A DNA stretch of 42,815 nt from Deltaproteobacteria bacterium (GCA_026416535.1 JAOAFA010000037.1:1-42815), one strand, 5' to 3'. Shown: positions 12,536 to 39,985, counted from the first letter of the stretch. Numbers and translations are program-made. The notes: generated by a model from the sequence alone, not told the origin.

Positions 12536-12630
12536 AATTTAATCCTCCAAAAGAGCAATAGTAAATGACAAAAATATCGCACTATGTCAATAAGGAAATT
12601 AAGATAATTTTTAATTAAGTAATTTCATGG

Positions 12631-12636
12631 TATACT
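12631..12636 (+). promoter_or_regulatory. -10 element before the IgGFc-binding-type gene
   Basis: TATACT sits 27 nt before the ATG at 12663; the -35 region is poor. If used, it places the transcript start downstream of the alternative ATG at 12627, which supports the start at 12663. Confidence 0.3.
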
Positions 12637-12662
12637 TATTTACTAACAATGCGGGAGGGAAA

Positions 12663-23840: not shown

Positions 23841-24401
23841 ATGCCTGAAGAGAGGAAGCTCAGTTATGAAGAATTTGTGAAGAGGTCAATAGAGACCTTG
23901 AGATCACCTAAGTATAGGGGTATTCATTCAGTATTTTCTGGTTTTAATCAGGCTTTTAAAGAATATTATGGGGAAGATCCGATAAAAGTCACTAAGCAGC
24001 TTGCTGACGAAGGCAAGATTGCTATTAGACCCGCTAAAGGGGGGGTTATGATTTATCTTCCAGAGGACGTATCCCCCTCCATAAACACAGACCAGATATT
24101 TGAAAAGATGGGTATAAATAAGAACGAAGATAAAAAATTGAGTTACGAGGAGTTTACGAGATTGGCGGTTGAGAAACTGAGACCACCAAAGTACAAGGGT
24201 ATTCATTCTGTTTATTCTGGATTTAATCAGGCTTTTAAAGAATATTTTAATGAAGATCCTGTAAAGGTTACAAAACAACTGACCGAAGAAGGGAAGATCA
24301 CTGTAAGACCTGCTAAGGGTGGGGTTATGATTTATCTTCCAGAAGAGGTAGCTCCTACTACAAGCGCAATGTCAATTCTTAAAAAGATGGGACTCAAATG
24401 A
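23841..24401 (+). CDS. Protein of two tandem copies of one small domain (possibly winged-helix-like)
   Basis: The 186 residues consist of two near-identical domains of about 80-90 residues (from residue 6 and from residue 99). Each unit reads KLSYEEF, an L-R-x-P-K-Y step, GIHSVxSGFNQAFKEY, EDPxKVTKQLxxEGKI, RPAKGGVMIYLPE, and ends with KMG. Predicted helices followed by a basic turn and a short beta strand (GKIxxRPAKGGVMIYL) look like a winged-helix layout, but this is inference; I know no function for such proteins. No signal peptide or membrane segment is present. It has its own strong promoter and an AAGGAGGATTAG ribosome site, so it is probably well expressed. It converges with the radical SAM gene, leaving only 7 bp. 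Confidence 0.7.
   Translation: MPEERKLSYEEFVKRSIETLRSPKYRGIHSVFSGFNQAFKEYYGEDPIKVTKQLADEGKIAIRPAKGGVMIYLPEDVSPSINTDQIFEKMGINKNEDKKLSYEEFTRLAVEKLRPPKYKGIHSVYSGFNQAFKEYFNEDPVKVTKQLTEEGKITVRPAKGGVMIYLPEEVAPTTSAMSILKKMGLK
23856..24398 (+). repeat. Internal duplication, two units about 279 nt apart
   Basis: The DNA of the first unit (from 23856) recurs from 24135 with high identity. The most similar stretch is the one coding for AKGGVMIYLPE (GGGGTTATGATTTATCTTCC in both copies). The differences are mostly silent or conservative. Confidence 0.8.
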
Positions 24402-24408
24402 TCAATCT

Positions 24409-25761
24409 TTAAGATTTGATTCTTGATAAATATTCTCTATTAAAACTTAGCCACCGATTTACAATATATCTACCCATAATTCTGTGTTTTATGCGGTCAA
24501 TCTTTGGAAATATCCTACTTGGAAGATTAAAGAAAAAATCGAATCCAGTCATTAATATATCATCAATGAGCTCAAGATATGAGTAAAATGATTTATACGA
24601 GTCTATAATCCCTCTTTGAAGCTCCTCTGGAGTCATGTTCTTGGGTTTGAATACAACATGTTGGCCATCATAATATTGCCAGTCTTCATGGAGGAGTCTC
24701 CTTTCTCTCCTAAATTCATCAAATACTGGTGTGCCGGGTAGGGGAGTTAGAGCCAAGTATTGAACTGTATCAATTCCTTCATCTTTACAGAATCCCACTG
24801 TTGAGTCGAAGATTTCCGGTGTGTCTTCATCGGTGCCAAATATAAACATGCCATGAACTTTTATATCGAATTTGTGAAAAACATTGATTGCTCTTTTAAT
24901 ATCATCAATGTCTTGCCTCTTTTGAAAACCTTTAAGTGATCTTTCGTTGATAGATTCAATCCCTATATATACTCTATGGAATCCTGCTTCCGACATCTTT
25001 TTGACAATGTGTGGATGTTTAGCGATGTCGGTCCTCACTTGCGCGCTAAATTCAAATTTTTTATTAAGAGCTATAATCCCATCAAGGATGCGATCTGTCC
25101 TTTTAATGTCCGCTGCAAAGTTATCATCGTATACAAAGATGTCACTGTTTGGTATATTTTTTAGTAGGTTTAGAACGTATGCATCAGAGTGTACTCTATA
25201 TCTTCTGCCAAACATACGAGTAACAGTGCAAAACGAACAATTAAACGGACAACCTCTCGAAAACATCACAGGTTGAATAAATTTTTTGTTGAATCCCTTA
25301 ACAAGGGAGAAATCTGGAAATGGAATTGAATCCATATCCTCAATCCTGTTACACTGAATTATCCCCTTTTCTTTTCTTCCTTCGATGATGTCTAAGATCC
25401 TCTCTTCACCTTCAAAAGTTGCTACATAATCTGCGTGTTGAATACTTTCTTCAGGCATAAAAGAGGCATGAATTCCTCCTATAATGATTGTCTTCTCAGG
25501 GTAGCTTTCTTTAAACATGTCTGCAATTTCATATCCTCGTTGGGCAGTGCTTGTTATAATAGAAATACATAATATGTCACAATTTAAATCTTTAATAGTT
25601 AGATCCCTTCCCAAAATATTCTCGTTAATAACTTCCGTAACATAGCCATTTTTATTGAGTATTGTTGCAAGATATACGGGTCCTAGTAGAGGCAGCATCA
25701 TGTACTTAGCAAATACATTTGATCTTGCCCCACGTGGTTCTACAAAGATAATCTTTTTCAT
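24409..25761 (-). CDS. B12-binding-domain radical SAM enzyme
   Basis: The 450-residue protein has an N-terminal cobalamin-binding Rossmann domain (about 1-130; ISIITSTAQRGYEIAD, TIIIGGIHASFMPEE, YVATFEGEE) and a central radical SAM domain. The 4Fe-4S cluster motif is CPFNCSFC (Cys171, Cys175, Cys178). Later hallmarks are FVYDDNFAAD, GFHRVYIGIESINE and LTPLPGTPVF, as in the BchE/HpnP-like class B family with a C-terminal extension. Members do methylations and ring-forming reactions on tetrapyrroles, lipids or natural products; the substrate here cannot be read off. It is the last gene of a tight run from PilZ (27371) through rhomboid and the LiaF-like protein, 6 bp from the previous stop. Confidence 0.88.
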   Translation of the reverse strand: MKKIIFVEPRGARSNVFAKYMMLPLLGPVYLATILNKNGYVTEVINENILGRDLTIKDLNCDILCISIITSTAQRGYEIADMFKESYPEKTIIIGGIHASFMPEESIQHADYVATFEGEERILDIIEGRKEKGIIQCNRIEDMDSIPFPDFSLVKGFNKKFIQPVMFSRGCPFNCSFCTVTRMFGRRYRVHSDAYVLNLLKNIPNSDIFVYDDNFAADIKRTDRILDGIIALNKKFEFSAQVRTDIAKHPHIVKKMSEAGFHRVYIGIESINERSLKGFQKRQDIDDIKRAINVFHKFDIKVHGMFIFGTDEDTPEIFDSTVGFCKDEGIDTVQYLALTPLPGTPVFDEFRRERRLLHEDWQYYDGQHVVFKPKNMTPEELQRGIIDSYKSFYSYLELIDDILMTGFDFFFNLPSRIFPKIDRIKHRIMGRYIVNRWLSFNREYLSRIKS

Positions 25762-25767
25762 AAATTT

Positions 25768-26259
25768 TTATTCCTTTCTTCCCAATTTCTTGGGATAATG
25801 ATTAATGATAAGGATTAGTATACCTAAAAGAGCCATTGTGAGTGGCCAAAAAGAATAAGATATTGAGAATACAAAGGCAAAGGCTATCCCGAGAAGTGAG
25901 GATCCAATCCCAGATATTCTTACAACGATGGACTTGTTTAAATAAGAGCCTATGATTAGAGAAAGTCCTAAAAATATCACAAATACAGGCCATAAAGTCG
26001 CAAGTTCTGACCATGATATTATGTTTAGGTAAAAAAAGAAGATGGAGCAAAGCAGGATAAATACACCTATCCCGCCCATTATTGGAGATCTATGCTCAGA
26101 TTTAAGAGCGATAACAAAAGAACCAAGTCCGAAGATGAAAGGAAAGATAGGCCAGATTTTATATAACCCCTTTGTAATCCCAAATGTCTCAAGAAGTAAT
26201 AACGGGGTGCATGCAATTAATACGATTGCAAGGATGTCAAACTGTTTTAGTTTTATCAA
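25768..26259 (-). CDS. LiaF/LiaI-like multi-pass membrane protein
   Basis: The 163-residue protein has about six hydrophobic segments arranged in pairs, with the repeated LWPxxxxxxGL pattern (KIWPIFPFIFGLGSF, TLWPVFVIFLGLSLIIG, SFWPLTMALLGILIL). This is the mark of the LiaF/LiaI-like transmembrane region (DUF5668 type). Such proteins sit in the inner membrane; in Gram-positives they belong to envelope-stress modules, and in proteobacteria the role is unknown. The ATG overlaps the rhomboid stop by ATGA, and the radical SAM gene follows by 6 bp, so they are one transcription unit. Confidence 0.68.
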   Translation of the reverse strand: MIKLKQFDILAIVLIACTPLLLLETFGITKGLYKIWPIFPFIFGLGSFVIALKSEHRSPIMGGIGVFILLCSIFFFYLNIISWSELATLWPVFVIFLGLSLIIGSYLNKSIVVRISGIGSSLLGIAFAFVFSISYSFWPLTMALLGILILIINHYPKKLGRKE

Positions 26260-26972
26260 TTGATATACCTGTCTTTCTCTATAACTCTAAATCTTTTTCT
26301 CCTGTATCTACTGGAGATCTCATTTAAAGTGGATATTAAAATAGATGGTAGATAGAGCCTTTTGATTATTATGATTCCACAAAGGAGTCCGCCTATATGA
26401 GCTGGGAAAGAATACGGTGATCCAGCCAGTGCATACAATACGGAGATGATGAGTATTATTAGTAACATATGTTTTGCCTTGATGGGGATTACAAAGTAAA
26501 AGAGTATCCGACTCTCAGCATAAAGAACGCAAAATGCCCCTATTAAACCAAACAATGCCCCTGATTGACCAATTGTGGGTATGTTATACGCAGAGGTAAA
26601 AATTAGACCACTTGCTAAGATGAACAACCCCCCTACGATGCCACAAATAATGTAAAATTTTAGAAATATCTTTGTCCCCCATTTCTCTTCAAGAGGTGAA
26701 CCAAACATCCAGAGACCAAGCATATTAAAGATCAAGTGAGTAGGATCTGTGGGAGAATGTAGCAACATATACGTGAATATTTGGTGAATGTAAAGATTTT
26801 GAAAGACTAAGGATGGAGTAAGCCCAAACAAAATTATTAATAAGCTGGATAAATCTAAGTATTTAGATATGAGTTGGAGCATATAAACTGCGGTAGTTAG
26901 AAAAATTGTATATTTTACGCCTTTAGTTAGTCTACCGCCTATTATTTGAAAATTAGGATTATAATTGTACAT
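26256..26972 (-). CDS. Rhomboid-family intramembrane serine protease
   Basis: This 238-residue protein cleaves transmembrane helices within the membrane. It has six hydrophobic segments. The family marks are HLIFNMLGLW (80-89) in TM2, GQSGALFG with nucleophile Ser137, and AHIGGLLCG with catalytic His192 in the last helices. The WGT in loop 1 (EEKWGTKIFLKFY) also fits bacterial rhomboids. The substrate is unknown. The gene starts right after the PilZ stop (the TAA abuts the ATG) and overlaps the next gene by 4 nt, implying shared translation. Confidence 0.92.
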   Translation of the reverse strand: MYNYNPNFQIIGGRLTKGVKYTIFLTTAVYMLQLISKYLDLSSLLIILFGLTPSLVFQNLYIHQIFTYMLLHSPTDPTHLIFNMLGLWMFGSPLEEKWGTKIFLKFYIICGIVGGLFILASGLIFTSAYNIPTIGQSGALFGLIGAFCVLYAESRILFYFVIPIKAKHMLLIILIISVLYALAGSPYSFPAHIGGLLCGIIIIKRLYLPSILISTLNEISSRYRRKRFRVIEKDRYIN

Positions 26973-27371
26973 TTATGGAGGTGTTTCTGGAAGTACGTTC
27001 CCTTTTTTAAGGTTATTGTTGACGATCTCCTCAATAAGTTGCATTGATTCTTCATCCATGTTAATGAATTCAATCCCCATTCCGGGTACCTTATCAGGGT
27101 TGTTGACATCTACTTTATTCACCCAGACCACTCTTCCTAATCCCTCTATTAATTTGCTTCCATCAGCAAGAGTAAACTGAAAGTAAATAAGTATTCCTTT
27201 TTCTCTTGGCTCAGTGGTTTTTATAAACATCCCGCCAAGTGAAATATTCAGTGCATATTCAGATATAAATTCTTCGAGGGAATTGAATTTATACTGGACA
27301 AGGAGTGATAGAGGAACTCTTGGATATCGCCTTCTATTAGTTGTTGTAGATGGTGTCTTGGTATCCGCCAT
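26973..27371 (-). CDS. PilZ-domain protein, myxobacterial type
   Basis: The 132 residues are nearly all PilZ domain, which in many proteins binds cyclic-di-GMP. The RxxxR step is in NRRRYPR (Arg14-Arg18) and the second motif in NISLGGMFI, where canonical D/NxSxxG is met. The layout YALNISLGGMFIKTTEP, GLGRVVWVNK and GMGIEF matches the paralogous family described from Myxococcus xanthus (TIGR02266), not all of which bind the nucleotide. There is no output domain, so it probably acts by protein contact. No Shine-Dalgarno box is visible before the ATG. A FNR-type palindrome lies 23 bp upstream. The rhomboid gene follows directly. Confidence 0.87.
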   Translation of the reverse strand: MADTKTPSTTTNRRRYPRVPLSLLVQYKFNSLEEFISEYALNISLGGMFIKTTEPREKGILIYFQFTLADGSKLIEGLGRVVWVNKVDVNNPDKVPGMGIEFINMDEESMQLIEEIVNNNLKKGNVLPETPP

Positions 27372-27393
27372 ATAATTTTAATTAACAAACAAT

Positions 27394-27407
27394 TTGATTA
27401 AAATCAA
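27394..27407. promoter_or_regulatory. Exact FNR-type palindrome upstream of the PilZ gene
   Basis: TTGAT-TAAA-ATCAA matches the FNR consensus TTGAT-N4-ATCAA in all ten defined positions. It lies in the 69-bp gap between ino1 and the PilZ gene, 23 bp before the PilZ ATG. That is too close for a -41.5 activator site with this start codon, but fits a repressor. AT-rich DNA makes chance matches possible. Confidence 0.3.
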
Positions 27408-27440
27408 GAAATTTACACCTGAGTAATTTGAAAATCTCCT

Positions 27441-28784
27441 TTAATCTCTCTCGTATTCAGCTTTGTAATAGTCCCAACCAAGGTGAGTAATTAGGTCCTC
27501 CCCTATCATATATCTTAGGGTATTTTTTAGTTTCATCTGCTGAATAAAGAGGTCATGCTCTGGATAAAGTCCCTTTTTTACCTGCGGAGATTTAAAGTAA
27601 AACGAAAGCCATTCCTGAATCCCCGCCATCCTTGCTCTTTGTGCTAGGTCAACAAATAGTACAAGGTCCAACACAATTGGTGCTGCCAAGATCGAATCTC
27701 TACACAAAAAATTTATTTTTATTTGCATTGGATATCCAAGCCAACCAAAGATATCTATATTATCCCATCCCTCTTTGTTATCCCCCCTAGGAGGATAGTA
27801 TTCTATCCTGACTTTATGTGTAAAATCACCATATAACTCCGGATAAAGATCGGGTTGTAAAATAGTATTGAGCACTGATAATTTTGAGACCTCTTTGCTT
27901 TTAAATGAACTAGGGTCATCAAGCACTTCACCATCTCTGTTACCTAAGATGTTAGTAGAAAACCAGCCATCAAGACCAAGTAATCTTGCCTTAAGACCTG
28001 GAGCAAGGATTGTCTTCATAAGGGTCTGACCTGTTTTAAAATCCTTTCCAGCTATTGGTAGATGTCTTTCCGTGGCGAGTTCTTCAATCGCCTTTATATC
28101 ACAAGCCATGTTGGGAGAGCCATTTATAAATGGAACCCCTGCCATAAGGGATGCGTATGCATATATCTGGGATGGTGCGATATCTTTGGAATTGTTTTTC
28201 AGTCCGTATTCAAAATTCTTGATATTGGAATGCACTTTCGTAGGTTTTCTATATGCCTCCGTGGAGGCACACCAAATTGTGACTGCTCTACTTACCTTAT
28301 TCTTCTTCTTAAAATCCTCAATATCCTTAATAAGCATTTGGGCCAATTCATATTTCGTCTTTGCAACTTTTTTGTTAGGCCCATCGAGCTTTTTTACATA
28401 GCTTCGATCAAATACCGCCTTCATGGGCTTGATCTCTTCAAGTTCCTTTTTGACAGGCTCTATATCCTGATAGGATAACACACCCGCCTTTTTAGCTACT
28501 TCATAGGCATTGTCTTCAAATATATCCCATGCCCCAAATACTAAATCATTTAAATCAGCGAGTGGAACTACATCTTTGATTAGGGGAAACCTCTTTTGAT
28601 CTCTCCTGCCTAGTCTAATTGTCCCCATCTGAGTGAGAGAACCTATTGGTTTACCTAATCCCTTTCTAATGAGGAATATTCCAGCTATGAAAGTAGTCGC
28701 AACTGCTCCTAGCCCAGGTATCAATACACCTAGTTTACCTTCGGGCATCTCAATGTTTATCTTCTTTTTTTCCACTCCTTCCAT
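27441..28784 (-). CDS. ino1: Inositol-3-phosphate synthase
   Basis: This NAD-dependent enzyme turns glucose-6-phosphate into 1L-myo-inositol 3-phosphate, the first step to inositol, inositol phospholipids or the compatible solute di-myo-inositol phosphate. The 447 residues are of the family's bacterial length. Hallmarks are the N-terminal LIPGLGAVATTFIAG dinucleotide-binding loop, PFINGSPN, GKDFKTGQT, NILGNRDGEVL, KVRIEYYPPRGD and KINFLCRDSILAAPIV. A GAAAGGAGCGAC leader gives a good ribosome site, and a promoter lies at 28818-28846. The gene may be cotranscribed with PilZ 69 bp downstream. No phosphatase or phospholipid synthase gene is nearby to tell which product is made. Confidence 0.95.
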   Translation of the reverse strand: MEGVEKKKINIEMPEGKLGVLIPGLGAVATTFIAGIFLIRKGLGKPIGSLTQMGTIRLGRRDQKRFPLIKDVVPLADLNDLVFGAWDIFEDNAYEVAKKAGVLSYQDIEPVKKELEEIKPMKAVFDRSYVKKLDGPNKKVAKTKYELAQMLIKDIEDFKKKNKVSRAVTIWCASTEAYRKPTKVHSNIKNFEYGLKNNSKDIAPSQIYAYASLMAGVPFINGSPNMACDIKAIEELATERHLPIAGKDFKTGQTLMKTILAPGLKARLLGLDGWFSTNILGNRDGEVLDDPSSFKSKEVSKLSVLNTILQPDLYPELYGDFTHKVRIEYYPPRGDNKEGWDNIDIFGWLGYPMQIKINFLCRDSILAAPIVLDLVLFVDLAQRARMAGIQEWLSFYFKSPQVKKGLYPEHDLFIQQMKLKNTLRYMIGEDLITHLGWDYYKAEYERD

Positions 28785-28817
28785 CTTGTCGCTCCTTTCA
28801 AACTTAATTGAGGTTTA

Positions 28818-28846
28818 TTGATAAATCTATTATTATAATATGTCAA
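28818..28846 (-). promoter_or_regulatory. Promoter of ino1
   Basis: On the minus strand a perfect TTGACA (28841-28846) is followed after 17 nt by TATCAA (28818-28823). The start would be near 28811, about 27 nt before the ATG at 28784. Confidence 0.5.
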
Positions 28847-28873
28847 TTTATTTTATGAGATCGAAATATGTAT

Positions 28874-28907
28874 AAAAAATAAGATATGTTTGAGAGCTCT
28901 TATCTTA
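28874..28907 (-). terminator. Intrinsic terminator on the minus strand, upstream of ino1
   Basis: On the minus strand TAAGATA and TATCTTA form a 7-bp stem around a 14-nt loop, followed directly by six Ts (28874-28879). It lies 18 bp behind the stop of the gene fragment at 28926 and just before the ino1 promoter, so it would separate ino1 from an upstream minus-strand gene that is now lost. Confidence 0.5.
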
Positions 28908-28925
28908 AAAATGCCTAAGCGTTCT

Positions 28926-29027
28926 TCAATTTGAATCTTTATATTGAGGATTGTCGTCAATCCACTGAGCATAATCTCTTCAAACCATGTTTTGGGATAT
29001 CCAAAAAGGCTTAATATTTTTTATTAT
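28926..29027 (-). pseudogene. C-terminal fragment of a lost minus-strand gene
   Basis: The minus strand reads KPFWISQNMV, an in-frame TGA, then RDYAQWIDDNPQYKDSN and a stop at 28926. The second part looks like a genuine soluble C-terminus, and a terminator follows. No start or upstream body exists because the plus-strand gene at 29094 begins within 70 bp. No family was recognised. Chance is not excluded. Confidence 0.3.
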
Positions 29028-29058
29028 AAAATTCATACTTGAAAATTTTCACTTTTAG

Positions 29059-29064
29059 TATAAT
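29059..29064 (+). promoter_or_regulatory. -10 element of the 29094-33462 gene run
   Basis: A perfect TATAAT lies 29 nt before the ATG at 29094. TTGAAA 14 nt upstream is too close and TACTTG at 17 nt is a poor -35, so the promoter may need an activator. Confidence 0.4.
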
Positions 29065-29093
29065 ATCCTTTAGGGAATTAATCTTTTGAGGAT

Positions 29094-29855
29094 ATGAGAA
29101 TTTTTGAAAAGATAAGATCGCTATTTAACAGAAAGAATACGGAACTATCTACCAGGGATGATAAGCCTGAAAATAAAAAGATCCATAAAAAAAAGGAAGA
29201 TTTGAATATTGGCGGAGATAGACCATTGGGGAAGGCATTTTCTGTTACAGAGGCGACTCTGTGCAGGACATGTTATGGACTCGGGAAAATAAGAGAGGAT
29301 GGCAATAAAAGGTACCTTCTATTCCCTGAAAAACTTGATGCTAGATATATACCCTTTGTAGAGAATGATTGTATAGAGGCCGTTTATACGATTGATCCAG
29401 ATAATTTTATTAAAGATGACAATGGTAGATTCCTCTATGAGATTATAGATTCTGCTCAGTTCTTTATGTTATCTAAAGAGCAAAAAGAAGAGATCTCCTC
29501 TGACCTAAAAAGAAAAGGGATTAGTTACAGATTCCCCGAGGAGATTGATAATTATAGTATTGTCATGAATATACTCAGGAATTCTACGTTGCTCATGAGA
29601 AATCAGGATTCTGGCTGGTTTGACAAAGAGAAGTTTTTGTCAGAAATTTTAGAGATTAAAGGCAGTAACACATATAAAGAATTACACCTTATTAGATTAA
29701 AAAATGGCAGTAGATATATCCTCATGATTAATCAAATTGTGGCAAATGTTGTTGAATATGGACCAAGCTTTATGAACCTTTATGAGCCTGGGGCAGTTAA
29801 GATAAGCTATCTCGATGGATATGCCTTTATAGTTCCATTTGGAAGGCCTAAGTAA
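29094..29855 (+). CDS. Unrecognised 253-aa protein with one CxxC
   Basis: I do not recognise this family. The N-terminal 45 residues are basic and charged (KIRSLFNRKNTEL, KKIHKKKEDL), without signal peptide or membrane segment. Residues 57-60 are CRTC, followed by YGLGKIREDG, as in one half of a zinc knuckle or a redox CxxC. The rest is a mixed alpha/beta domain (residues about 75-250) with motifs such as YTIDPDNFIKDDNG, GISYRFPEEID and LIRLKNGSRYILMINQI. It is the first gene of a plus-strand run and has TTTTGAGGAT just upstream of the ATG. The next gene follows by 21 bp, so a shared role with the TPR/cyclic-nucleotide-domain protein is likely. Confidence 0.7.
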   Translation: MRIFEKIRSLFNRKNTELSTRDDKPENKKIHKKKEDLNIGGDRPLGKAFSVTEATLCRTCYGLGKIREDGNKRYLLFPEKLDARYIPFVENDCIEAVYTIDPDNFIKDDNGRFLYEIIDSAQFFMLSKEQKEEISSDLKRKGISYRFPEEIDNYSIVMNILRNSTLLMRNQDSGWFDKEKFLSEILEIKGSNTYKELHLIRLKNGSRYILMINQIVANVVEYGPSFMNLYEPGAVKISYLDGYAFIVPFGRPK

Positions 29856-29876
29856 ACGAAAGGAGATACATCACAT

Positions 29877-31172
29877 ATGTTTAGAGAAATAGAATTTGAG
29901 TTTGATGAGTCACAAGGTTCGTTCGTTCCAACCTCGAAGGTTATAAACTATATCAAAAATTATATAATATCTGGCAACATAGAGGAGGCAGTAAGTGCAT
30001 ATCAGTCTTGTAAGGAAGATATTGGGGAAATGATATTTAATGAATTTAAGACTTCGAGCAAAGTTACTCTTAGAGCTGTTGGAGAGATGTTTAAGCAAGC
30101 CCGAGATTATAATATGGCTATCAAGTGTTTTACAGTTACTCAAAATTTCGAAGAGGTCGCCAAACTTTATGAAAAGAATTATGAGTTCGAAAAGGCAGCC
30201 CAAATGTATGAAAAGCTTAACCTTCTGGAAAATGCAGCAAATAATTATGAGAAGGCTAAACAATATGAAAAGGCGATTGAATTATACCGGAAGATAGGCA
30301 ATACTGAGAAAGTTCTTTTATGTGAGAAGACTATTGGAAAGTTTACCGATGCAACAGAATGGGCGATCGATAATAGTATGAGCTCAGATGTAATTGAGAT
30401 TTTAAGAAAGGTGCCACCGGCTGATGAGAAGTTCTCTGAAGCCAGAATCAAGCTTGCAAATATACTTATTCAAAAAGGCAACTCGGCCATGGCCCTTAAA
30501 TTTCTAATAGAGGGTTGCAAATTAAGTGGAATCAGCCAGAAGAGCCTCGAGATGTTTTACAAGGCAGGGGTATTGGCAACAGAGTTAAATTACAAAGAAC
30601 ATGCCATAAAACTGTTTCGGATAATTCAGAGTGTCTCACCTGATTATAGAGATGTTCAAGATAGATTAGCTTTTATAGAAGGGGGAGTTAAATTACCAGA
30701 ACTTTCTCAATTCGTAGACGAAGAATGTGGATACACATCTGTGATGAGGGATGCAGATAAAATCCATAAGATCCCTCTTTTTGATATGTTGAGTATGAAT
30801 GAGTTGAAAATGGTCTATTCAATGTGTTCAGAAAAGACCTATAAGCCAACAGATATTCTCATTAAAAGCGGGGTTATTCCAGAGGGCCTATTTATTATTC
30901 GCGAAGGGATTGTGGATGTCATGGTTGGTAATAGTATAGTGGCATCATTAAAAGATGGGGATTATATTGGTGAAATGAGCATGATTCTCAATGAACCACC
31001 TACGGCAAGTTGCATTGCCCATTCTATCGTAAAGGTCTACGTTATAAATAGGAATAAATTTATGGACATGCTTGAATCAGATGTTCAATTTTCCTCTAAG
31101 ATATTTAAAATGTTTGCCCTTGAATTGTCAAAAAGGCTTTCAAAAACCAATAAAATGCTTAACGATAAATAA
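29877..31172 (+). CDS. TPR protein with C-terminal cyclic-nucleotide-binding domain
   Basis: The 431-residue protein joins two modules. Residues about 20-280 are helical TPR-like repeats (MAIKCFTVTQNFEEVAKLYE, YEFEKAAQMYEKLNLLENAA, NNYEKAKQYEKAIELYRKIG). Residues about 295-425 form a CRP-type cyclic-nucleotide-binding fold: LFDMLSMNELKMV, the LIKSGVIPEGLFIIREGIVDV strand pair, GDYIGEMSMILNEPPTASCI at the phosphate-binding cassette, and VYVINRNKFMDML. The cassette has Gly-Glu but lacks the usual Arg after it (RxA is TAS here), so nucleotide binding may be altered. There is no DNA-binding helix-turn-helix, so it is not a classic CRP. AAAGGAGATAC gives a good ribosome site. It is cytoplasmic and in a tight run with its neighbours. 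Confidence 0.85.
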   Translation: MFREIEFEFDESQGSFVPTSKVINYIKNYIISGNIEEAVSAYQSCKEDIGEMIFNEFKTSSKVTLRAVGEMFKQARDYNMAIKCFTVTQNFEEVAKLYEKNYEFEKAAQMYEKLNLLENAANNYEKAKQYEKAIELYRKIGNTEKVLLCEKTIGKFTDATEWAIDNSMSSDVIEILRKVPPADEKFSEARIKLANILIQKGNSAMALKFLIEGCKLSGISQKSLEMFYKAGVLATELNYKEHAIKLFRIIQSVSPDYRDVQDRLAFIEGGVKLPELSQFVDEECGYTSVMRDADKIHKIPLFDMLSMNELKMVYSMCSEKTYKPTDILIKSGVIPEGLFIIREGIVDVMVGNSIVASLKDGDYIGEMSMILNEPPTASCIAHSIVKVYVINRNKFMDMLESDVQFSSKIFKMFALELSKRLSKTNKMLNDK

Positions 31173-31181
31173 GGGTAAGAT

Positions 31182-32501
31182 ATGCTAACAACAGATGTTT
31201 TAATAATTGGTGCAGGTCCATCCGGTTTAAGCACATCATATTTTTTGCAAATACCCAAGATAGTTATTATAGAAAAGGAGGATCGGGCCGGGGGGCTAAT
31301 GAAAACAGACTACTATGAAGATTCCTATTTTGATAAGACAGGTCATTTGTTGCATTTAAGGACAGATGAGCTTAGAAGGATAATAGAGAATGAGCTAAAT
31401 GTTCCTCTAAGAAGAATTAAAAGGAATTCAAAGATATTTTCTCGTGATACATTTATAGAATATCCCTTCCAAGTAAATTTATATGGTTTGCCCAAAGAAG
31501 TAGTAGCTACTTGCTTAAAAAATTTTATACATGCCAAAATAAAAAAAAGAAAGAAGAGGTACAAAAGCTTCAAGGACTTCATATATGGAGAATTCGGTGA
31601 AGGCATCGCTAATGAGTTCCTAATCCCCTATAATACCAAAATATGGACACTTAATCCAGATGACATGTCTGCAGGATTCTGTGAGAAATATATACCTGTA
31701 CCAGATATAGATGATGTTATTGATGGAGCGTTGGGAATCATAAAGACTGATGTTGGTTACAATGCCTCATTCTATTATCCAGAGCGAGGAGGTATTGAAT
31801 CAATAATAAGAGGCTTTTTAAGGAGGATCCATTCAGAAATCATATATAAGAGCTACCCAGTAAAGATAAATCTCAAAAAGCGATTGGTATTCTTATCAAA
31901 TAATACTGTTTACAATTACAAATACCTCGTATCTACAATTCCTCTTAATGATTTTATTAGTCTTATTGAGGATGCTCCGGTCGAGATCCAAAATGCAGGA
32001 AGTAGATTATCTAATACAGAGATCTGCTATTTTAATGTGATCACAAAGAGAATCTTAGATAATGTACCACATTGGATTTACCTACCCGAAAGAGATATAC
32101 CATTTTATCGTGTAGGTTCTTACTCTGCCTTTAATAGACTACTTACGAGAGATGAGTATGAGACATTTTATATCGAATTCTCATATAGAAAAGGGGGCTT
32201 TTGTGATTCTGGGAACCTTGAACGGAGAATTCCTCATCTTTTCAAACGACTTGGCTTTATAAAAGATGATTCAGATATAATAAGTATTAGGCCATTTTTC
32301 ATTAAGTGTGCTTATGTAATCTTCGATAAGCATTATCAAAAGTCCACCTCGCTGATTTTCGATTATCTCTCCAAGAACAGGGTTTATAGCATTGGTAGGT
32401 ATGGAAAATGGGAATACTCTTCTATGCAGGACGCTATACTTTACGGCAAAGAGACAGCATTAGATATAAAGAAAAGAATTAAAATTGAAAAAAACAAATA
32501 A
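31182..32501 (+). CDS. FAD-dependent amine-oxidase/UDP-galactopyranose-mutase-like enzyme
   Basis: The 439-residue protein has an N-terminal FAD-binding Rossmann motif, DVLIIGAGPSGLSTSYFLQ (5-23), then IIEKEDRAGGLMKTD and a GHLLHLR motif. SFKDFIYGEFGEGIANEFLIPYNTKIWTLNPDDMSAG (about 130-165) is the pattern of protoporphyrinogen-oxidase-like and UDP-galactopyranose-mutase-like proteins found in surface-sugar gene clusters. The end has the usual second FAD motif (VYSIGRYGKWEYSSMQDAILYGKETA). The substrate is unknown; candidates are a nucleotide sugar or a peptide/metabolite made by its operon partners. It starts 9 bp after the TPR gene stop, and its end overlaps the radical SAM gene by 17 bp. 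Confidence 0.82.
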   Translation: MLTTDVLIIGAGPSGLSTSYFLQIPKIVIIEKEDRAGGLMKTDYYEDSYFDKTGHLLHLRTDELRRIIENELNVPLRRIKRNSKIFSRDTFIEYPFQVNLYGLPKEVVATCLKNFIHAKIKKRKKRYKSFKDFIYGEFGEGIANEFLIPYNTKIWTLNPDDMSAGFCEKYIPVPDIDDVIDGALGIIKTDVGYNASFYYPERGGIESIIRGFLRRIHSEIIYKSYPVKINLKKRLVFLSNNTVYNYKYLVSTIPLNDFISLIEDAPVEIQNAGSRLSNTEICYFNVITKRILDNVPHWIYLPERDIPFYRVGSYSAFNRLLTRDEYETFYIEFSYRKGGFCDSGNLERRIPHLFKRLGFIKDDSDIISIRPFFIKCAYVIFDKHYQKSTSLIFDYLSKNRVYSIGRYGKWEYSSMQDAILYGKETALDIKKRIKIEKNK

Positions 32502-33462
32502 GATAATCTGGGCAATATATCTCAATCACAGGTGCAATCTTAATTGTGAGTACTGTTACCTTAAGTCTTTAAATGAAAGTAAGAGGGTTAACTTAGGTAC
32601 TCTCAAAAAGATTATTGATAGAATAACTGTTTTGAGTGCTTGTCAGAGGAGGCTCCCCGAGATTGGATTTTTCGGCAAGGAACCTTTACTTAATTTTGAG
32701 CTAATCAAGTTAGCTGTTAAGTATATCAAATCTAAAAATTATAAGTGTAGTCTTTCTATTAATACAAATGGAATACTACTTGACAAACATAAACTTGAAT
32801 TTCTTATTGAGAATAATTTTAGGATTGTCCTATCATCTGACTTTATTATATCGCGAAAGGATAACATTGCTATTTTTAGAGACTATAATAAAGATAGATT
32901 TCATATCAGGACAACTATAAGTTCATTAAATTTATTCATGCTTCCGAAGATAATAGAGGCGTTTTATAAAGAAGGGTACAAAAAATTGAGTATATCCTTT
33001 GACTTCCTTGATAGGGGTTTAGAGAGTATTAGTGTAGAAGAGATCGCTGACAAGTTTACTGAGTCTTTATTAGTTTATCTCAATATCATTAAATACGATG
33101 ACGGATTTTCAGTGCCACTTCTTGAGAGAATTATACAAGCGGGTAGTATATATAGTAAAAAAGTAGAGTTTAATAGGAAACCATTTTGCCATCTCGGGGA
33201 AAAGATATTATCTGTAGATATAGATGGGGGTCTGTATCCCTGCTGGAGGTTTGTAGTAGATGAGAAGTACAAGATCGGAAACCTTTTAGAGAACATTATT
33301 CATAGGAAAAGATATACAATCAATTTAAACTATGACTATATTAAAATAAAGAACTTTGACTTTGTGTGTTATTGGGCATATCTAAAGGGTGGATTAGCTC
33401 TTAAAAATAATCTTAAGATACTGCAAGCTATGGAAATAACTTTTAGAAGAATAGGCAAATAA
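32485..33462 (+). CDS. Radical SAM enzyme with short SPASM-like C-terminus
   Basis: The 325-residue protein has the 4Fe-4S motif CNLNCEYC (Cys17, Cys21, Cys24), as in radical SAM/SPASM peptide- and sulfatase-modifying enzymes. EIGFFGKEPLLNFELIK follows, where family members have GGEP; here the second Gly is Lys. The C-terminal part has RKPFCHLGEKILSVDIDGG, LYPCWRF and FVCYWAYLKGG, so only a few of the SPASM cysteines are present (a twitch-like short version). The likely start is TTG at 32485, overlapping the FAD enzyme gene; it has a poor ribosome site, and the exact start is not certain. No precursor peptide gene was recognised, though a 22-aa frame abuts its stop. Confidence 0.83.
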   Translation: MKKTNKIIWAIYLNHRCNLNCEYCYLKSLNESKRVNLGTLKKIIDRITVLSACQRRLPEIGFFGKEPLLNFELIKLAVKYIKSKNYKCSLSINTNGILLDKHKLEFLIENNFRIVLSSDFIISRKDNIAIFRDYNKDRFHIRTTISSLNLFMLPKIIEAFYKEGYKKLSISFDFLDRGLESISVEEIADKFTESLLVYLNIIKYDDGFSVPLLERIIQAGSIYSKKVEFNRKPFCHLGEKILSVDIDGGLYPCWRFVVDEKYKIGNLLENIIHRKRYTINLNYDYIKIKNFDFVCYWAYLKGGLALKNNLKILQAMEITFRRIGK

Positions 33463-33531
33463 ATGAATCGATCTTTAAAAATACAAAAGCTCTTAAGAAA
33501 ATACTTTATTATAAGGCAAATTTTGATATAA
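33463..33531 (+). CDS. Possible 22-aa basic peptide abutting the radical SAM gene
   Basis: An ATG directly follows the TAA of the radical SAM gene and opens a 22-codon frame (MNRSLKIQKLLRKYFIIRQI, then LI-stop). It is basic and amphipathic, with no Cys. Its position invites the idea of a modified peptide, but there is no ribosome site of its own other than readthrough coupling, no leader-core layout, and a 22-codon frame by chance is common. Confidence 0.15.
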   Translation: MNRSLKIQKLLRKYFIIRQILI

Positions 33532-33573
33532 AAAGTGGATTAGTACCCTATAGTATTTAGGAGAATGTATACT

Positions 33574-35277
33574 ATGATCAGAAGAATGTTTTTAGCAATA
33601 TCAATAATGGTAGGGCTGTGTGTTATATCGTGCTCTGATTGTGAAAGAAAGAAGTTAGATATCAAAAGTATAATTCCTCAGGATACCCAAAATGTGGTTT
33701 TAATCCCTAATGTTAATTCGCTCATAAACGGCGTTGTTCAGTTTTTGAAACAATATGAGAACGGGTTGGCATTTGAGACTCTCAAAAAGGAGATAGATCT
33801 GGTTTCCCAAAAACTAGGTGTTAACTTAATGGATAGAAAGAGTATTATCGAGGCTGGATTTAACCCTGATGGGTCTATTGCCATAATCTCTACGTCAGTT
33901 ATGTTGGAGGGAAAACAGCAAAATGTGAATTTGGTCTTGATGCCATATTCCGATCGTTCCAAGGCAGAAAATACACTAAATAGGCTTGCAAGAGACAGAG
34001 AGAAGACCGAGATATTTAAGACTAAGTCATATATGAATGCAAAAATTATAACTGCAATAAGGCAGGGTCCAAAGGGCGAAAAGCCAGTTTTAATGTATGC
34101 CTTCTATAAAGGATTTGTGATATATGGATTGCCCGAAAAGGCTGAAGCTGCAATAAGAAAGATAATCGATACCAGAGAAATCAATTCTTTGGCTAAGAAC
34201 GAGGTGTTTAATGGCTTAAAGGATAGAATCAGAAGTGGACAGATATACTTCTTTATAAATAGTGGCAAAAATATAGAACCCGCTGGCCTAAACTTAAGTA
34301 GAGAAATGAAAAGGATGGTATCATCCATAAGAGATAATTTTCATGGAATGCTTCTCTCACTTGATATTTCTCAAAATGGAGTTAGTCTTGATAGTTTTAC
34401 AGGTCTTTCACAGAACTCTTTAGGTAATTTAAACAGATACTTAAGTAAGTCATCAACTGATGAGATTGAAAGGCTTATGTATATTGTCCCAGAGGATCCA
34501 TTTTTTCTTCTCAAGGTCAGTATGAATTTTACTGAGATTTATAATTTTCTGAAGTCAGAGAATCCCTATCAAATGATGATTATTAATAAAAGGATATTTG
34601 GTCCTATGATGAAATATATGGAGGTTGACGTGGAAAAGGATATTCTACCACTTATCAAAGGTTCTTTAATATACGCAGTCTCTCCATCTGAGCAGTATGA
34701 CATTAACAAAGTAATTGAAAGTGGGTTTAGAGGGGAGGCTTTTAATAAACTCTTTAATGTCTTTTATTCTATGAATCTTAATGATGAAAAGCTATCTAAT
34801 GAGCTTTTAGAGAGATTTTCGAAGAGCATGATAGAGAAGGGACAACGGGTGGAAAGGATTAACCTGAGAGGCCTTTCAATAACTTCGTCAAGATTTGGCG
34901 CAGCTCATAATTCCTATTGGTTTGTAGATAAGAACAATTTTTACGCATTTTATACCGAGAACAAGCCCGAGAATGTGGTGAGGAAACCCGAGGAGAAAAG
35001 CAGGAGACCCACATATAAAATACCACAAGATGTATTAAAAACTATTATGGATAATCCTTCTTCCCAAGTAATATATATATCATTTTCCCCTATTCGCAAG
35101 ATGATTGAAAAGATAGATGAGAAAAGTTTTGAATCGATATCCTCCACTGGAATCTATAAATTTTCATTTATGTTGATCAAGGAATTCCTCGGGAAACTTG
35201 ATAATTTGGCTATCTACTCCATACCTCAAAATGATGGGGTAGCTTTTAGTATCTTTGTGAATATGAAAGGCAAATAA
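33574..35277 (+). CDS. Lipoprotein of unknown function upstream of Lol genes
   Basis: I place the start at the second ATG (33574), 10 nt after TTTAGGAG; the ATG at 33565 is too close to that box. The product has 567 residues with a lipoprotein signal (VISC). The body is a large soluble domain of alpha/beta repeats (SIIPQDTQNVVLIPNVNSL near the start, FMLIKEFLGKLDNLAIYSIPQ and VAFSIFVNMKGK near the end). Its repeated halves and DxxGxS-type steps recall the DUF3352-type lipoproteins, but I am not confident of the family. It is 5 bp upstream of the LolD-like gene and could be a client or accessory of lipoprotein sorting. Confidence 0.75.
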   Translation: MIRRMFLAISIMVGLCVISCSDCERKKLDIKSIIPQDTQNVVLIPNVNSLINGVVQFLKQYENGLAFETLKKEIDLVSQKLGVNLMDRKSIIEAGFNPDGSIAIISTSVMLEGKQQNVNLVLMPYSDRSKAENTLNRLARDREKTEIFKTKSYMNAKIITAIRQGPKGEKPVLMYAFYKGFVIYGLPEKAEAAIRKIIDTREINSLAKNEVFNGLKDRIRSGQIYFFINSGKNIEPAGLNLSREMKRMVSSIRDNFHGMLLSLDISQNGVSLDSFTGLSQNSLGNLNRYLSKSSTDEIERLMYIVPEDPFFLLKVSMNFTEIYNFLKSENPYQMMIINKRIFGPMMKYMEVDVEKDILPLIKGSLIYAVSPSEQYDINKVIESGFRGEAFNKLFNVFYSMNLNDEKLSNELLERFSKSMIEKGQRVERINLRGLSITSSRFGAAHNSYWFVDKNNFYAFYTENKPENVVRKPEEKSRRPTYKIPQDVLKTIMDNPSSQVIYISFSPIRKMIEKIDEKSFESISSTGIYKFSFMLIKEFLGKLDNLAIYSIPQNDGVAFSIFVNMKGK

Positions 35278-35282
35278 AAATT

Positions 35283-35957
35283 ATGCCATTAATAGAGCTC
35301 ATAGAGGTAGGTAAATCTTACCTTATTGATGGTGTAAAAAAGTTGATAATAGATGGAGTCAATCTCAGTATTGCTCGCGGGAGCATAGTAGCTATCATCG
35401 GTCCCTCTGGTTCAGGCAAGTCAACCCTCTTGAATATAATAGGTGGACTTGATAGCACCTTTGATGGAGAGGCAGTAGTTGAGAATGTGAAGTTAAAGGA
35501 TCTTTCTGACGTTGAATTAAGTAGGTTTAGAAATGAAAAGATAGGTTTTATATTTCAACATTTTAATCTATTGGATCACCTAAACTGTAGAGAAAATGTC
35601 ATTTTACCTTCTTATTTCTCAAGGCTTAATCCAAAAGAGATTGAAAAAAGGGTCAACTATCTTTTTGATAAAGTTCAACTAACACACAAGATGAGACAGT
35701 ATCCTCCCACACTTTCCGGCGGTGAGAAGCAGAGAGTAGCTATTGCCAGAGCATTATTCATGAATCCATCTGTTCTTCTCTGTGACGAACCAACAGGTGA
35801 TCTAGACGATGTTACTGCATCAACCATATTGGATCTTTTCCTCTCCATAAGAAAGGATATGAATGTGACATTTGTAATTGTAACTCACGAGGAAAGGATA
35901 ACAAAAATAGCAGATGAGATATACATGATTAAGGAACGTAGACTTGTAAGGATTTAA
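35283..35957 (+). CDS. lolD: Lipoprotein-releasing ABC transporter ATP-binding protein (LolD-like)
   Basis: The 224-residue ATPase has Walker A GPSGSGKST (40-48), Q-loop Gln92, signature LSGGEKQ (144-150), Walker B VLLCDEPTGDLD with Glu169, and His202. EPTGDLD and the short length are typical of the LolD/MacB/FtsE group, which powers removal of lipoproteins from the inner membrane or related work. Alone, the sequence fits LolD, MacB and similar ATPases; the LolA gene three places downstream makes LolD the best call. It is 5 bp after the lipoprotein gene. The permease follows with a GTG start 1 bp after the TAA. Confidence 0.85.
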   Translation: MPLIELIEVGKSYLIDGVKKLIIDGVNLSIARGSIVAIIGPSGSGKSTLLNIIGGLDSTFDGEAVVENVKLKDLSDVELSRFRNEKIGFIFQHFNLLDHLNCRENVILPSYFSRLNPKEIEKRVNYLFDKVQLTHKMRQYPPTLSGGEKQRVAIARALFMNPSVLLCDEPTGDLDDVTASTILDLFLSIRKDMNVTFVIVTHEERITKIADEIYMIKERRLVRI

Positions 35958-35958
35958 G

Positions 35959-37233
35959 GTGAAAGGAATTTCAGCACTAGCCATAAAAAATCTTGTGAGG
36001 AATAAAGGAGCATTATTTCTTTCTTCAGTAGGAATAATTTTTGGGATTGCCTCCTTCGTCTTTTTTGTTTCTCTTGGTAATGGCATTAAATCGGTAGTAT
36101 TCGGAAAGATTCTCGCTCAATTACCGGTAAATATCATCGAGGTTACACCTAAGAGTTCAACTATAGGTATATTTTCTTTTGGTGGTATTTCAGCATCCCA
36201 CATTGAGGATTCAACAGTGGATACCATTTCATCGATAAAAGGTGTAAAGGCTGTATATAAAGAGGTGGTACTCGATATACCTATTCAAGCAAAGGGTGAG
36301 TTTTATTCTAGGAGAATAGTGACCGATCTTGCAGCGACTGGTATAGATCCAGAGATAGTTAGAGATGATATTAAAAAAGGCTATTCTTTTGAATACCAAG
36401 AGGATGGTCCCATACCGGTTATAGTCTCTAAACATCTGCTGGAGCTTTATAATTCAAACATTGCTCAGGCAATGAAATTACCAAGATTAACTCAGGATGC
36501 AATAATCGGATTTAAATTCAAGCTTATTGTCGGTAGAAGCTTCCTATCTGGGGTAAAAGATTCATCTAAGATCAGGGAATATGAATGCCAATTGGTTGGC
36601 TTTTCGGACAAGGCCATTCTTTTAGGAATTACAATCCCTATTGAATATGTAAGGAGATTTAAAAATGATATCGAAGGAATAGATGAGATTAAGAGATACA
36701 AGAAGGTATATGTGATTGCAGAAAATTCTCAAATAGTCCCCAAGATAACAGCTGAGATATCTTCAATGGGACTCGAGATTGATAAGACAAGGAAGACAAT
36801 AGGTGGTGTTATAAGTATAGCAACTCTAATTCTCGGAATGCTTTCCATATTAATAGTAGCATTATCAGCAATAAATATCTCTAATACATTTGCCCTTCTT
36901 GTTTTTGAGAGGAGACGGGAGATAGGAGTTTTGAGAGCACTGGGAGGCACCAAAGGGGATATCAGATACATGATCTTCCTTGAGGCGTCAATTGCGGGGA
37001 TCATCAATGGTCTTATTGGAATTTTATTGGGATTTTTATTTATAAAACTGACTGACTTTTTTGCTCGCAATAATATACCTGATTTTCCATATAAACCCGA
37101 TACATTTTTTGAACCTAATATTCTTATATTCTTGGTAGCTATTACATTTTCCGTGTTTTTCTGTACATTAGGAGCATTGTTACCTTCAATCAAGGCATCA
37201 AAAATTGATCCAGCAAGGGCATTGACGATGTGA
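35959..37233 (+). CDS. Lipoprotein-releasing ABC permease (LolC/LolE/MacB type)
   Basis: The 424-residue permease has an N-terminal transmembrane helix (about 17-40), a large periplasmic MacB-PCD-like domain (about 45-275), then three helices near 280-305, 325-355 and 385-410. FERRREIGVLRALGGTKGDIRYMIFLEASIAGI is the classic FtsX/LolC cytoplasmic coupling segment. The start is GTG at 35959, preceded by GTAAGGATTT. The single permease gene suggests a homodimer, as described for LolF-type systems outside gammaproteobacteria, unless another permease lies elsewhere. It extracts lipoproteins from the inner membrane and passes them to LolA. Confidence 0.84.
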   Translation: MKGISALAIKNLVRNKGALFLSSVGIIFGIASFVFFVSLGNGIKSVVFGKILAQLPVNIIEVTPKSSTIGIFSFGGISASHIEDSTVDTISSIKGVKAVYKEVVLDIPIQAKGEFYSRRIVTDLAATGIDPEIVRDDIKKGYSFEYQEDGPIPVIVSKHLLELYNSNIAQAMKLPRLTQDAIIGFKFKLIVGRSFLSGVKDSSKIREYECQLVGFSDKAILLGITIPIEYVRRFKNDIEGIDEIKRYKKVYVIAENSQIVPKITAEISSMGLEIDKTRKTIGGVISIATLILGMLSILIVALSAINISNTFALLVFERRREIGVLRALGGTKGDIRYMIFLEASIAGIINGLIGILLGFLFIKLTDFFARNNIPDFPYKPDTFFEPNILIFLVAITFSVFFCTLGALLPSIKASKIDPARALTM

Positions 37234-37243
37234 GGAGTAACAT

Positions 37244-37954
37244 ATGAACTTTTTGTTAGTATTGATTTTATTAATATCAATAAGTTATTATGGTGCCACT
37301 TGTCATACAGGGTCAAATATGAGTGAGGTGCATCAAAAAATGATTAATGAAACCCTCGGAAACAGACGTTATTTTTTAAAATCTTCTTTTTATTATGGAG
37401 ACTTTTACGGGAATTCAGATGTGTGCCTTCTCTCACCGCGAAGATTCAGTGATACGATATACCTTGAAGATATTGACGGGAAACCTATTGTTTCAGGAAA
37501 GGAGAAAGGCATAGTCCCTTTTAACACAGAGGTTAAAGTTGAAAAGATTGAGTTCCCTCTTGCTACCAGGCCATTATTGACTCCGCGCTTTTATCCCTGG
37601 GTTTATGTAACAGTAGATAGACCTTTAGGATATAAGGCATGTATTGTTGTAATAAAACCTGATGTGGCTAAACCAGAAGACTTTAAAAAACTTTTTGATG
37701 AAATATTTTCTGAAAATAGTTTTGAAAGCTATTTAAAGAGTGTGAGTTCAGATGTAAGAGACGCAATTTATGAAAAGAAGTTCAAAGAAGATCTCAGCGA
37801 AGAAGAGATCCGCATCATATTTGGTAAACCCGATTCGGTGACTTTTTATAGAGAAGGCGATATTAATATAAAGGCATTGAACTATCCTTCATTTAAGATA
37901 ATTCTTAAGAATGGAAAGTCATATAAACTAGAAGAGGTAGGGAACAAGAGATGA
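37244..37954 (+). CDS. Exported protein of unknown function between Lol genes
   Basis: The 236-residue protein has a hydrophobic signal segment (residues 2-17) and a Cys at residue 20 in GATC. A lipoprotein is possible, but the lipobox is not canonical (Thr before Cys). The body shows no motif I recognise (PFNTEVKVEKIEFPLATRPL, YPWVYVTVDRPLGYKACIVV and an end resembling SmpA-like or BamE-like turns, IRIIFGKPDSVTFYREG). It lies 10 bp after the permease and overlaps LolA by ATGA, with a GAGGAGTAAC ribosome site. This position suggests a link to lipoprotein transport, possibly a LolB-like acceptor, but nothing in the sequence proves it. Confidence 0.72.
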   Translation: MNFLLVLILLISISYYGATCHTGSNMSEVHQKMINETLGNRRYFLKSSFYYGDFYGNSDVCLLSPRRFSDTIYLEDIDGKPIVSGKEKGIVPFNTEVKVEKIEFPLATRPLLTPRFYPWVYVTVDRPLGYKACIVVIKPDVAKPEDFKKLFDEIFSENSFESYLKSVSSDVRDAIYEKKFKEDLSEEEIRIIFGKPDSVTFYREGDINIKALNYPSFKIILKNGKSYKLEEVGNKR

Positions 37955-38586
37955 GCTGGGTTATTGTTTTATTGAATATGCTCGTATGTCTAAATACGAG
38001 CCAAGATGTCATTTCCTTGCTTCAAGACAGGTATGATAAAATTAAGGACTTTAAGACTGAGTTTATCCAATCATATTACAGCACTAATGGAACGTTGCTG
38101 CTTGAGTCAACAGGAGTTCTATACTATAAGAAAAAGGGCATGTTTAGATGGGATTATAAGACTCCCAAACAAAAACAGTTTATTGTTAAGGATAATACCC
38201 TATGGATTTTTCTTAAAGACGACGGGATTGTATATATTGATGATAATTTCAAGACATCACAAATGAAACTAATACTCCTTTTTCTTTACGGAGAAGGGAG
38301 TCTTGAGAGAGAGTTTAATGTTGAGAAAATTACCGAAGATACGGAATTTTATAGAATTCTACTTATCCCCAAGGAAGAGGCCGCCAATTTGACTCGTCTT
38401 ACCATCCATTTGAGGAGAAAAACCTATAATGTAGAAAAGATGGAAATTACAGATAGATTAGGTAATAAGAATGTATTCCATTTTAAAAATTTAAATTTCG
38501 ATGTTGGATTGGGAGAGGCTCTCTTCAATTTTAAAATTCCAGAAGGTGTTGAGGTATATCCATTACCCAAGGACATGTTTAAATAG
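37951..38586 (+). CDS. lolA: Outer-membrane lipoprotein carrier protein LolA
   Basis: LolA is the periplasmic chaperone that carries lipoproteins from the Lol ABC transporter to the outer membrane. The 211 residues include a short signal peptide (MSWVIVLLNMLVCLNTS). Family features follow: VISLLQDRYDKIKDFKTEFIQ, SYYSTNGTLLLESTGVLYYKKKGMFRWDY, the KQKQFIVKDNTLWIFLKDDG strand, and the late LTIHLRRKTYNVEKMEITDRLGN. The start overlaps the previous gene by ATGA, with GAGGTAGGG upstream. RimO follows immediately. Confidence 0.9.
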   Translation: MSWVIVLLNMLVCLNTSQDVISLLQDRYDKIKDFKTEFIQSYYSTNGTLLLESTGVLYYKKKGMFRWDYKTPKQKQFIVKDNTLWIFLKDDGIVYIDDNFKTSQMKLILLFLYGEGSLEREFNVEKITEDTEFYRILLIPKEEAANLTRLTIHLRRKTYNVEKMEITDRLGNKNVFHFKNLNFDVGLGEALFNFKIPEGVEVYPLPKDMFK

Positions 38587-39927: not shown

Positions 39928-39985
39928 TCAGTTTACTTCATAATTTTTATTGAAAAAAGCTAAAACAATGTGATACTAAAGATTC

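Follow-up and report, generated by a model that had tools for sequence, protein, structure and literature searches.

The contacts that the UDP-galactopyranose mutase (UGM) of Aspergillus fumigatus (AfUGM) makes with UDP-Galp and FAD have been tabulated (Table 3 of PMC3624792), and its R182K variant has ∼10% of activity left (PMC3893270), with R327 being the more critical arginine. In proteins with a cyclic-nucleotide-binding (CNBD) fold, binding is mediated by a conserved Glu and a conserved Arg in the phosphate-binding cassette (PMC12422582). Twitch radical SAM enzymes, which carry one auxiliary cluster (PMC9012708), are invoked below as an analogy for the remaining auxiliary cysteines of a radical SAM protein. 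A literature search, with most subscription journals outside its reach, found no relevant paper that combines these families or describes the gene set analysed here, in agreement with the original prediction, which knew of no named system with this set; the sole paper with both UGM and radical SAM concerns Lactococcus strain genomics, and the combination with a deacetylase was met only in Acinetobacter outer-core loci.

The window, i.e. the whole stretch of 42,815 nucleotides analysed, is contig C88 of a 134-contig, 2.96 Mb draft genome, and the sole congener compared is G001 (DYEF01000065.1, deposited as 'Bdellovibrio sp. isolate Tomsk_43_40'; loci L103/L123). The four tightly spaced, same-strand genes that had been predicted are confirmed as ORFs, with 21 bp and 9 bp between the first three and an overlap of 17 bp where the radical SAM gene begins; they are probably transcribed as one unit. 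The features of the locus are as follows.

29026–29067, + strand: conserved promoter-like element before gene 1, 79% identical to the congener over 42 bp
29094–29855, + strand: gene 1, encoding a lineage-restricted protein of 253 aa from no known family (no Pfam match)
29877–31172, + strand: TPR protein of 431 aa with a C-terminal CNBD fold (CNBD at ∼30834–31082; Pfam TPR and cNMP_binding)
31182–32501, + strand: UDP-galactopyranose-mutase-like flavoenzyme of 439 aa (PDB matches all UGM)
32485–33462, + strand: radical SAM protein of 325 aa with an eroded SPASM domain (Pfam Radical_SAM, 6.6e-15) and a TTG start inside the flavoenzyme gene
33493–33532, + strand: conserved non-coding element before the DUF3352 gene, 82.5% identical to the congener over 40 bp

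The congener has the four genes in identical order, and its last gene likewise begins at a TTG and overlaps the flavoenzyme gene. Synteny between the two species extends, however, to every one of the 17 genes compared from 23841 to 41512, so the shared order of the four is weak evidence for joint function. The paired short conserved non-coding elements that flank the block, before gene 1 and before the DUF3352 gene, are better evidence for a unit than gene order, and the second of these suggests the start of the next operon. The first has a -35/-10-like layout, with the hexamers TTGAAA at 29039 and TATAAT at 29059 at a spacing of 14, or of 16 with TAATAT as the second hexamer, whereas the rest of the gap before gene 1 is poorly conserved; it is also listed in a promoter scan whose total count does not exceed chance expectation. 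Neither a terminator-like site at the locus nor an Rfam match to an RNA element was found. Elsewhere in the window, a myo-inositol-1-phosphate synthase gene (27441–28784) is divergent from the operon and has its own conserved upstream stretch, and a B12-binding radical SAM protein is encoded nearby on the opposite strand (24409–25761), as part of a block that also contains rhomboid and PilZ genes. Large surface-type proteins are encoded at 12627–14567, 16578–20693, 20713–23466 and 4791–6878, with IgGFc_binding, FG-GAP repeat, NHL repeat (with a MopE-type metal-binding motif) and ASPIC/UnbV domains.

The third protein had been described as a FAD amine-oxidase-like enzyme, a label that is upheld by a modest match to Pfam Amino_oxidase (E = 3.9e-7) but gives way to a more specific one, as all 14 of its 14 PDB matches are UDP-galactopyranose mutases (best E = 3.5e-32). 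The PRK07208 models of NCBIfam match below their cut-off, the best NCBIfam models are named 'hypothetical protein', and a literature search on PRK07208 returned no paper. The active site was mapped by sequence alignment to AfUGM with residue numbers counted by hand; Y419 of AfUGM falls in an unaligned stretch and is outside this mapping. Twelve UDP-sugar/FAD contacts are identical in the flavoenzyme: the UDP/diphosphate contacts Y104, F106, Q107, F158, N163, W167, Y317, R327 and Y453 of AfUGM correspond to Y94, F96, Q97, F146, N151, W155, Y300, R310 and Y412, respectively, to which H55, N194 and R406 are added. The more critical arginine is accordingly kept, as R310, and several of the mapped residues are invariant or nearly so across the phylum flavoenzyme family (alignment A7, in which row L114 is the wrong gene). 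In contrast to these, R182 of AfUGM aligns with Y170, next to K169 (a column with Arg in most phylum relatives), and N457 is replaced by Q416. On this alignment the flavoenzyme belongs to the UDP-galactopyranose mutase superfamily and retains most of the UDP site; since the equivalents of R182 and N457 are changed, we name it UGM-like rather than UGM, and its substrate may not be UDP-Galp.

Outside the genus, each of the four families has other neighbours. At the 28 best loci in the phylum (35–41% identity to the window flavoenzyme), a glycosyltransferase of a single GT2 subfamily, resembling undecaprenyl-phosphate sugar transferases, lies immediately downstream in 26, and a NodB-homology deacetylase (Pfam Polysacc_deac_1) follows the GT2 gene in 24. 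Of the two GT2 exceptions, L025 is at a contig edge, and in L021 the next two genes after that for the flavoenzyme encode a weakly Kdo-kinase-like protein and an Alg9-like mannosyltransferase. These counts are from tblastn, the simple gene caller being unreliable in GC-rich relatives, and many of the 28 genomes come from one family, with the GT2 adjacency spanning five families (f2, f4, f6, f9, f26) and that of the deacetylase three (f4, f6, f9). On other contigs of the window genome are relatives of the GT2 (58% identical) and of the deacetylase (37% identical), likely the counterparts of the phylum block genes. The conserved neighbourhood points to an envelope-sugar pathway, and the flavoenzyme most likely belongs to one whose genes no longer lie together in this genus; as neither partner is beside it in the window, its role in the pathway may have changed. 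The glycosyltransferase neighbour that the original prediction proposed to look for is found across the phylum, and among the genomes tested only the window genome and the congener have the four genes together. The flavoenzyme, ArnC-like GT2 and NodB-type deacetylase block (L015–L042), for which no published name was located, is perhaps of wider interest than the set in the window. In the window genome and the congener, the counterpart of the GT2 gene (L142 9040–10961, L143 8545–10471) lies, by eye, between FolE2-like (GTP cyclohydrolase) and PilZ-like genes.

The operon layout, the UGM relationship with its conserved site residues, the GT2/deacetylase neighbourhood, the loss of SPASM cysteines and the missing cassette Arg (the last two are described below) are all read from sequence, and they are best accommodated by a tentative reading to which we give a probability of roughly 0.42: the locus would be a genus-specific four-gene operon around a UGM-like envelope-sugar flavoenzyme, in which the phylum block has been rearranged so that the radical SAM gene now overlaps the flavoenzyme gene. 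From here we infer substrate, product, joint action and scaffold role. By homology to UGM, the flavoenzyme would bind a UDP-hexose, its reduced FAD would act as the nucleophile on the sugar–UDP bond, and the sugar ring would be rearranged to supply an envelope glycan or a sugar linked to polyprenyl phosphate. The phylum block, in which the flavoenzyme is joined by a GT2 of polyprenyl-phosphate type and a NodB-type deacetylase, would have been broken up in the genus, with the latter two now on other contigs and the place behind the flavoenzyme gene taken by a fast-diverging radical SAM gene that overlaps it. This radical SAM enzyme would most likely act on the same sugar or its acceptor by means of its RS cluster and, at the most, a single auxiliary cluster, and the TPR/CNBD protein and the gene 1 product may serve as scaffold or regulator without classical cAMP/cGMP binding. 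It counts against the sugar-operon reading that nothing in the sequence of the TPR protein or of gene 1 connects them to sugars.

Almost as likely is that the four genes are co-transcribed but separate in function, the flavoenzyme still serving its earlier envelope-sugar pathway together with the GT2 and deacetylase encoded elsewhere, the other proteins having unrelated tasks, and the grouping having arisen by chance and slow rearrangement. This would account for the synteny of all 17 genes around the locus and for the absence of the set outside the genus, where a radical SAM gene adjoins the flavoenzyme gene at 0 of 28 loci, a credible relative of any of the other three genes lies within 1.5 kb at 0 of 28 TPR/CNBD loci (one radical SAM match there has E = 0.009), and the gene 1 relatives stand apart. 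It accounts less well for the overlap of the flavoenzyme and radical SAM genes with a TTG start in both species, and for the conserved promoter-like element that would serve all four.

The original prediction of a radical SAM enzyme with a short SPASM region holds for the core of the fourth protein and fails for much of the SPASM domain. The CxxxCxxC motif of the radical SAM cluster is present (C17, C21 and C24) and conserved in the congener, the core is intact, and the GFFGKEPL and YPCWRF stretches are also kept there. In place of the usual GGEP motif the protein has FGKEPLLN at 32671–32694 (residues 63–70), and the order-level relative L145 has FGREPL, which may mark a subfamily. The Pfam SPASM score is 20.0 against a cut-off of 21.5; the CX12GX4C half is kept, whereas all four cysteines of CX2CX5CX3C are replaced, so that the seven-Cys SPASM motif, which specifies two auxiliary clusters, is absent. 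The conserved cysteines of the protein are 17, 21, 24, 235, 253 and 295, of which C295 is the sole one near the lost half. The three C-terminal cysteines C235, C253 and C295 leave room for no more than one auxiliary cluster, for which the twitch enzymes offer a possible analogy. Among solved structures the nearest is 5wgg (CteB, 1e-23; recorded as 'Radical SAM domain protein'), and the nearest family model is PapB, at a score of 123.7 against a cut-off of 340. Matches of defence-system searches were rejected as indicators of a viperin/anti-phage role, the PADLOC viperin match (1.9e-13) being core radical SAM similarity and the Pycsar/TIR matches being CNBD similarity.

The radical SAM gene is the fastest evolving of the 17 compared (51% identity to the congener), and within the phylum no relative outside the genus is better than E = 1e-19; L145, at 26% identity, still has a cysteine-rich SPASM end, and its neighbours are, by eye, DNA-repair genes. 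This rate, the loss of the four motif cysteines and the cysteine-rich end kept in L145 would fit a protein that is decaying, or is now a non-catalytic partner of the flavoenzyme. As dS is saturated, constraint was judged from dN and codon-position counts: changes at position 3 (0.63) exceed those at positions 1 (0.33) and 2 (0.25), indicating purifying selection, and the frame is open in both species with the RS-cluster cysteines, both conserved stretches and the three C-terminal cysteines retained; we regard decay or conversion to a non-catalytic partner as improbable. If the sugar-operon reading is true, this genus-specific neighbour would be an instance of a SPASM enzyme that has lost its auxiliary-cluster motif yet stays under selection. 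A more specific version, which we consider unlikely, has the flavoenzyme and the radical SAM protein working one after the other on a single UDP- or lipid-linked sugar, the latter with no more than one auxiliary cluster and both organised by the Arg-less CNBD protein as scaffold, to give an undescribed radical-modified envelope sugar.

The second protein was predicted to be a cyclic-nucleotide-binding TPR protein conferring second-messenger control on the pathway. The TPR and the cNMP_binding fold are present (PF00027, 2.3e-16). The phosphate-binding cassette, GEMSMILNEPPTASC, which contains PPTAS, retains the Glu, but at the usual Arg position has Thr in the window and Ser in the congener. 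The missing Arg was placed by comparison with relatives, some of which keep PRLAS, and with the E. coli CRP and PKA cassettes. Classical cyclic-nucleotide binding is, from the cassette, unlikely, and because the Arg is absent the second-messenger control loses its support; a cNMP_binding label on Arg-less CNBD proteins should be taken with caution as a sign of such control. A block of TPR/CNBD relative, two CoA-transferase subunits and a WD40 protein recurs in the phylum (L117 7552–11947, L121 8730–12982, L115 2549–6817).

These results bear on the proposal that the locus encodes a pathway under second-messenger control, with a modified peptide or cofactor as the product of its radical SAM and FAD enzymes. 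Four guanylate/adenylate-cyclase-type domains are encoded in the window genome, so cyclic nucleotides may be made, and peptide maturases are the closest matches to the radical SAM core, as seen with both the PapB model and the CteB structure. Set against this are the Arg-less CNBD, the loss of CX2CX5CX3C, and a flavoenzyme that is UGM-like and adjoins GT2 genes elsewhere; in the two gaps between the genes, no small ORF with conserved protein-level similarity was found, a search of the gaps only that leaves room for a distant precursor. We regard this proposal as very improbable, and of the modified peptide, sugar or cofactor originally suggested, it is the sugar, through the UGM-like enzyme beside GT2, that is favoured.

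The gene 1 product had been called a CxxC protein, a description that does not survive comparison: CRTC in the window is CRTS in the congener, and in two distant relatives Cys is absent from both positions. The motif therefore lacks conservation across the alignment, and a conserved redox or metal function for it is not supported. Its members number four including that of the window, at 70% identity in the congener and ∼25–30% in G002 and G017, with no further relatives in the 195 phylum genomes searched or in a non-exhaustive, pattern-based scan of ∼85,000 species genomes. In the stretches read around them, the distant relatives are not adjacent to the other three families. The AF2 model has a mean pLDDT of 77 overall and is good for residues 52–253, and it gave no significant match to PDB folds. 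A CoA-transferase subunit beside the TPR-protein relatives was considered as a gene 1 homologue and rejected, as it is PF01144 and alike only in length and position.

Two redox/radical enzymes, the flavoenzyme and the radical SAM protein, are thus confirmed for the set. The broad four-family pathway that had been envisaged is not sustained, since among the genomes tested, all of one phylum, the four genes occur together only in the window genome and the congener, where the surroundings are syntenic too. These results go halfway to the refutation that the original prediction named for itself: the set is absent outside the genus and the families have other neighbours there, but the congener keeps the order, amid wider synteny. 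If the sugar-operon reading is true, a common uncharacterised group of flavoenzymes is placed in a UDP-sugar/polyprenyl-phosphate context conserved across the phylum, with a GT2 and a deacetylase.

In comparison with known systems, the radical SAM protein shares the radical SAM core and CX12GX4C with the SPASM peptide maturases PapB and CteB/SCIFF maturase, but lacks CX2CX5CX3C, is shorter, falls far below the PapB cut-off and has no precursor peptide found. The best seven TPR-CNBD proteins of the phylum are ∼28–32% identical to that of the window over nearly the full length and, where read, in several cases also have an Arg-less, PTSA-type cassette; where examined, they adjoin CoA-transferase subunits and a WD40 protein rather than the window's enzymes. 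The phylum block has a flavoenzyme of the same family as that of the window, with the GT2 and deacetylase genes directly downstream, whereas in the window the radical SAM gene occupies this place and the other two are on other contigs. The eukaryotic-type UGMs, represented by A. fumigatus UgmA (3uka/3ute) and 4dsg, are of the same superfamily as the flavoenzyme and have in common with it the YPFQ, PYNxKxW, WxYxPE...PFYR and GRxGxWxY stretches and the Gly-His loop; the flavoenzyme differs in the equivalents of R182 and N457, in an N-terminal loop that reads TGH instead of GGH, and in being ∼70 residues shorter. The components are of known superfamilies, and the four-gene set is confined to one genus.
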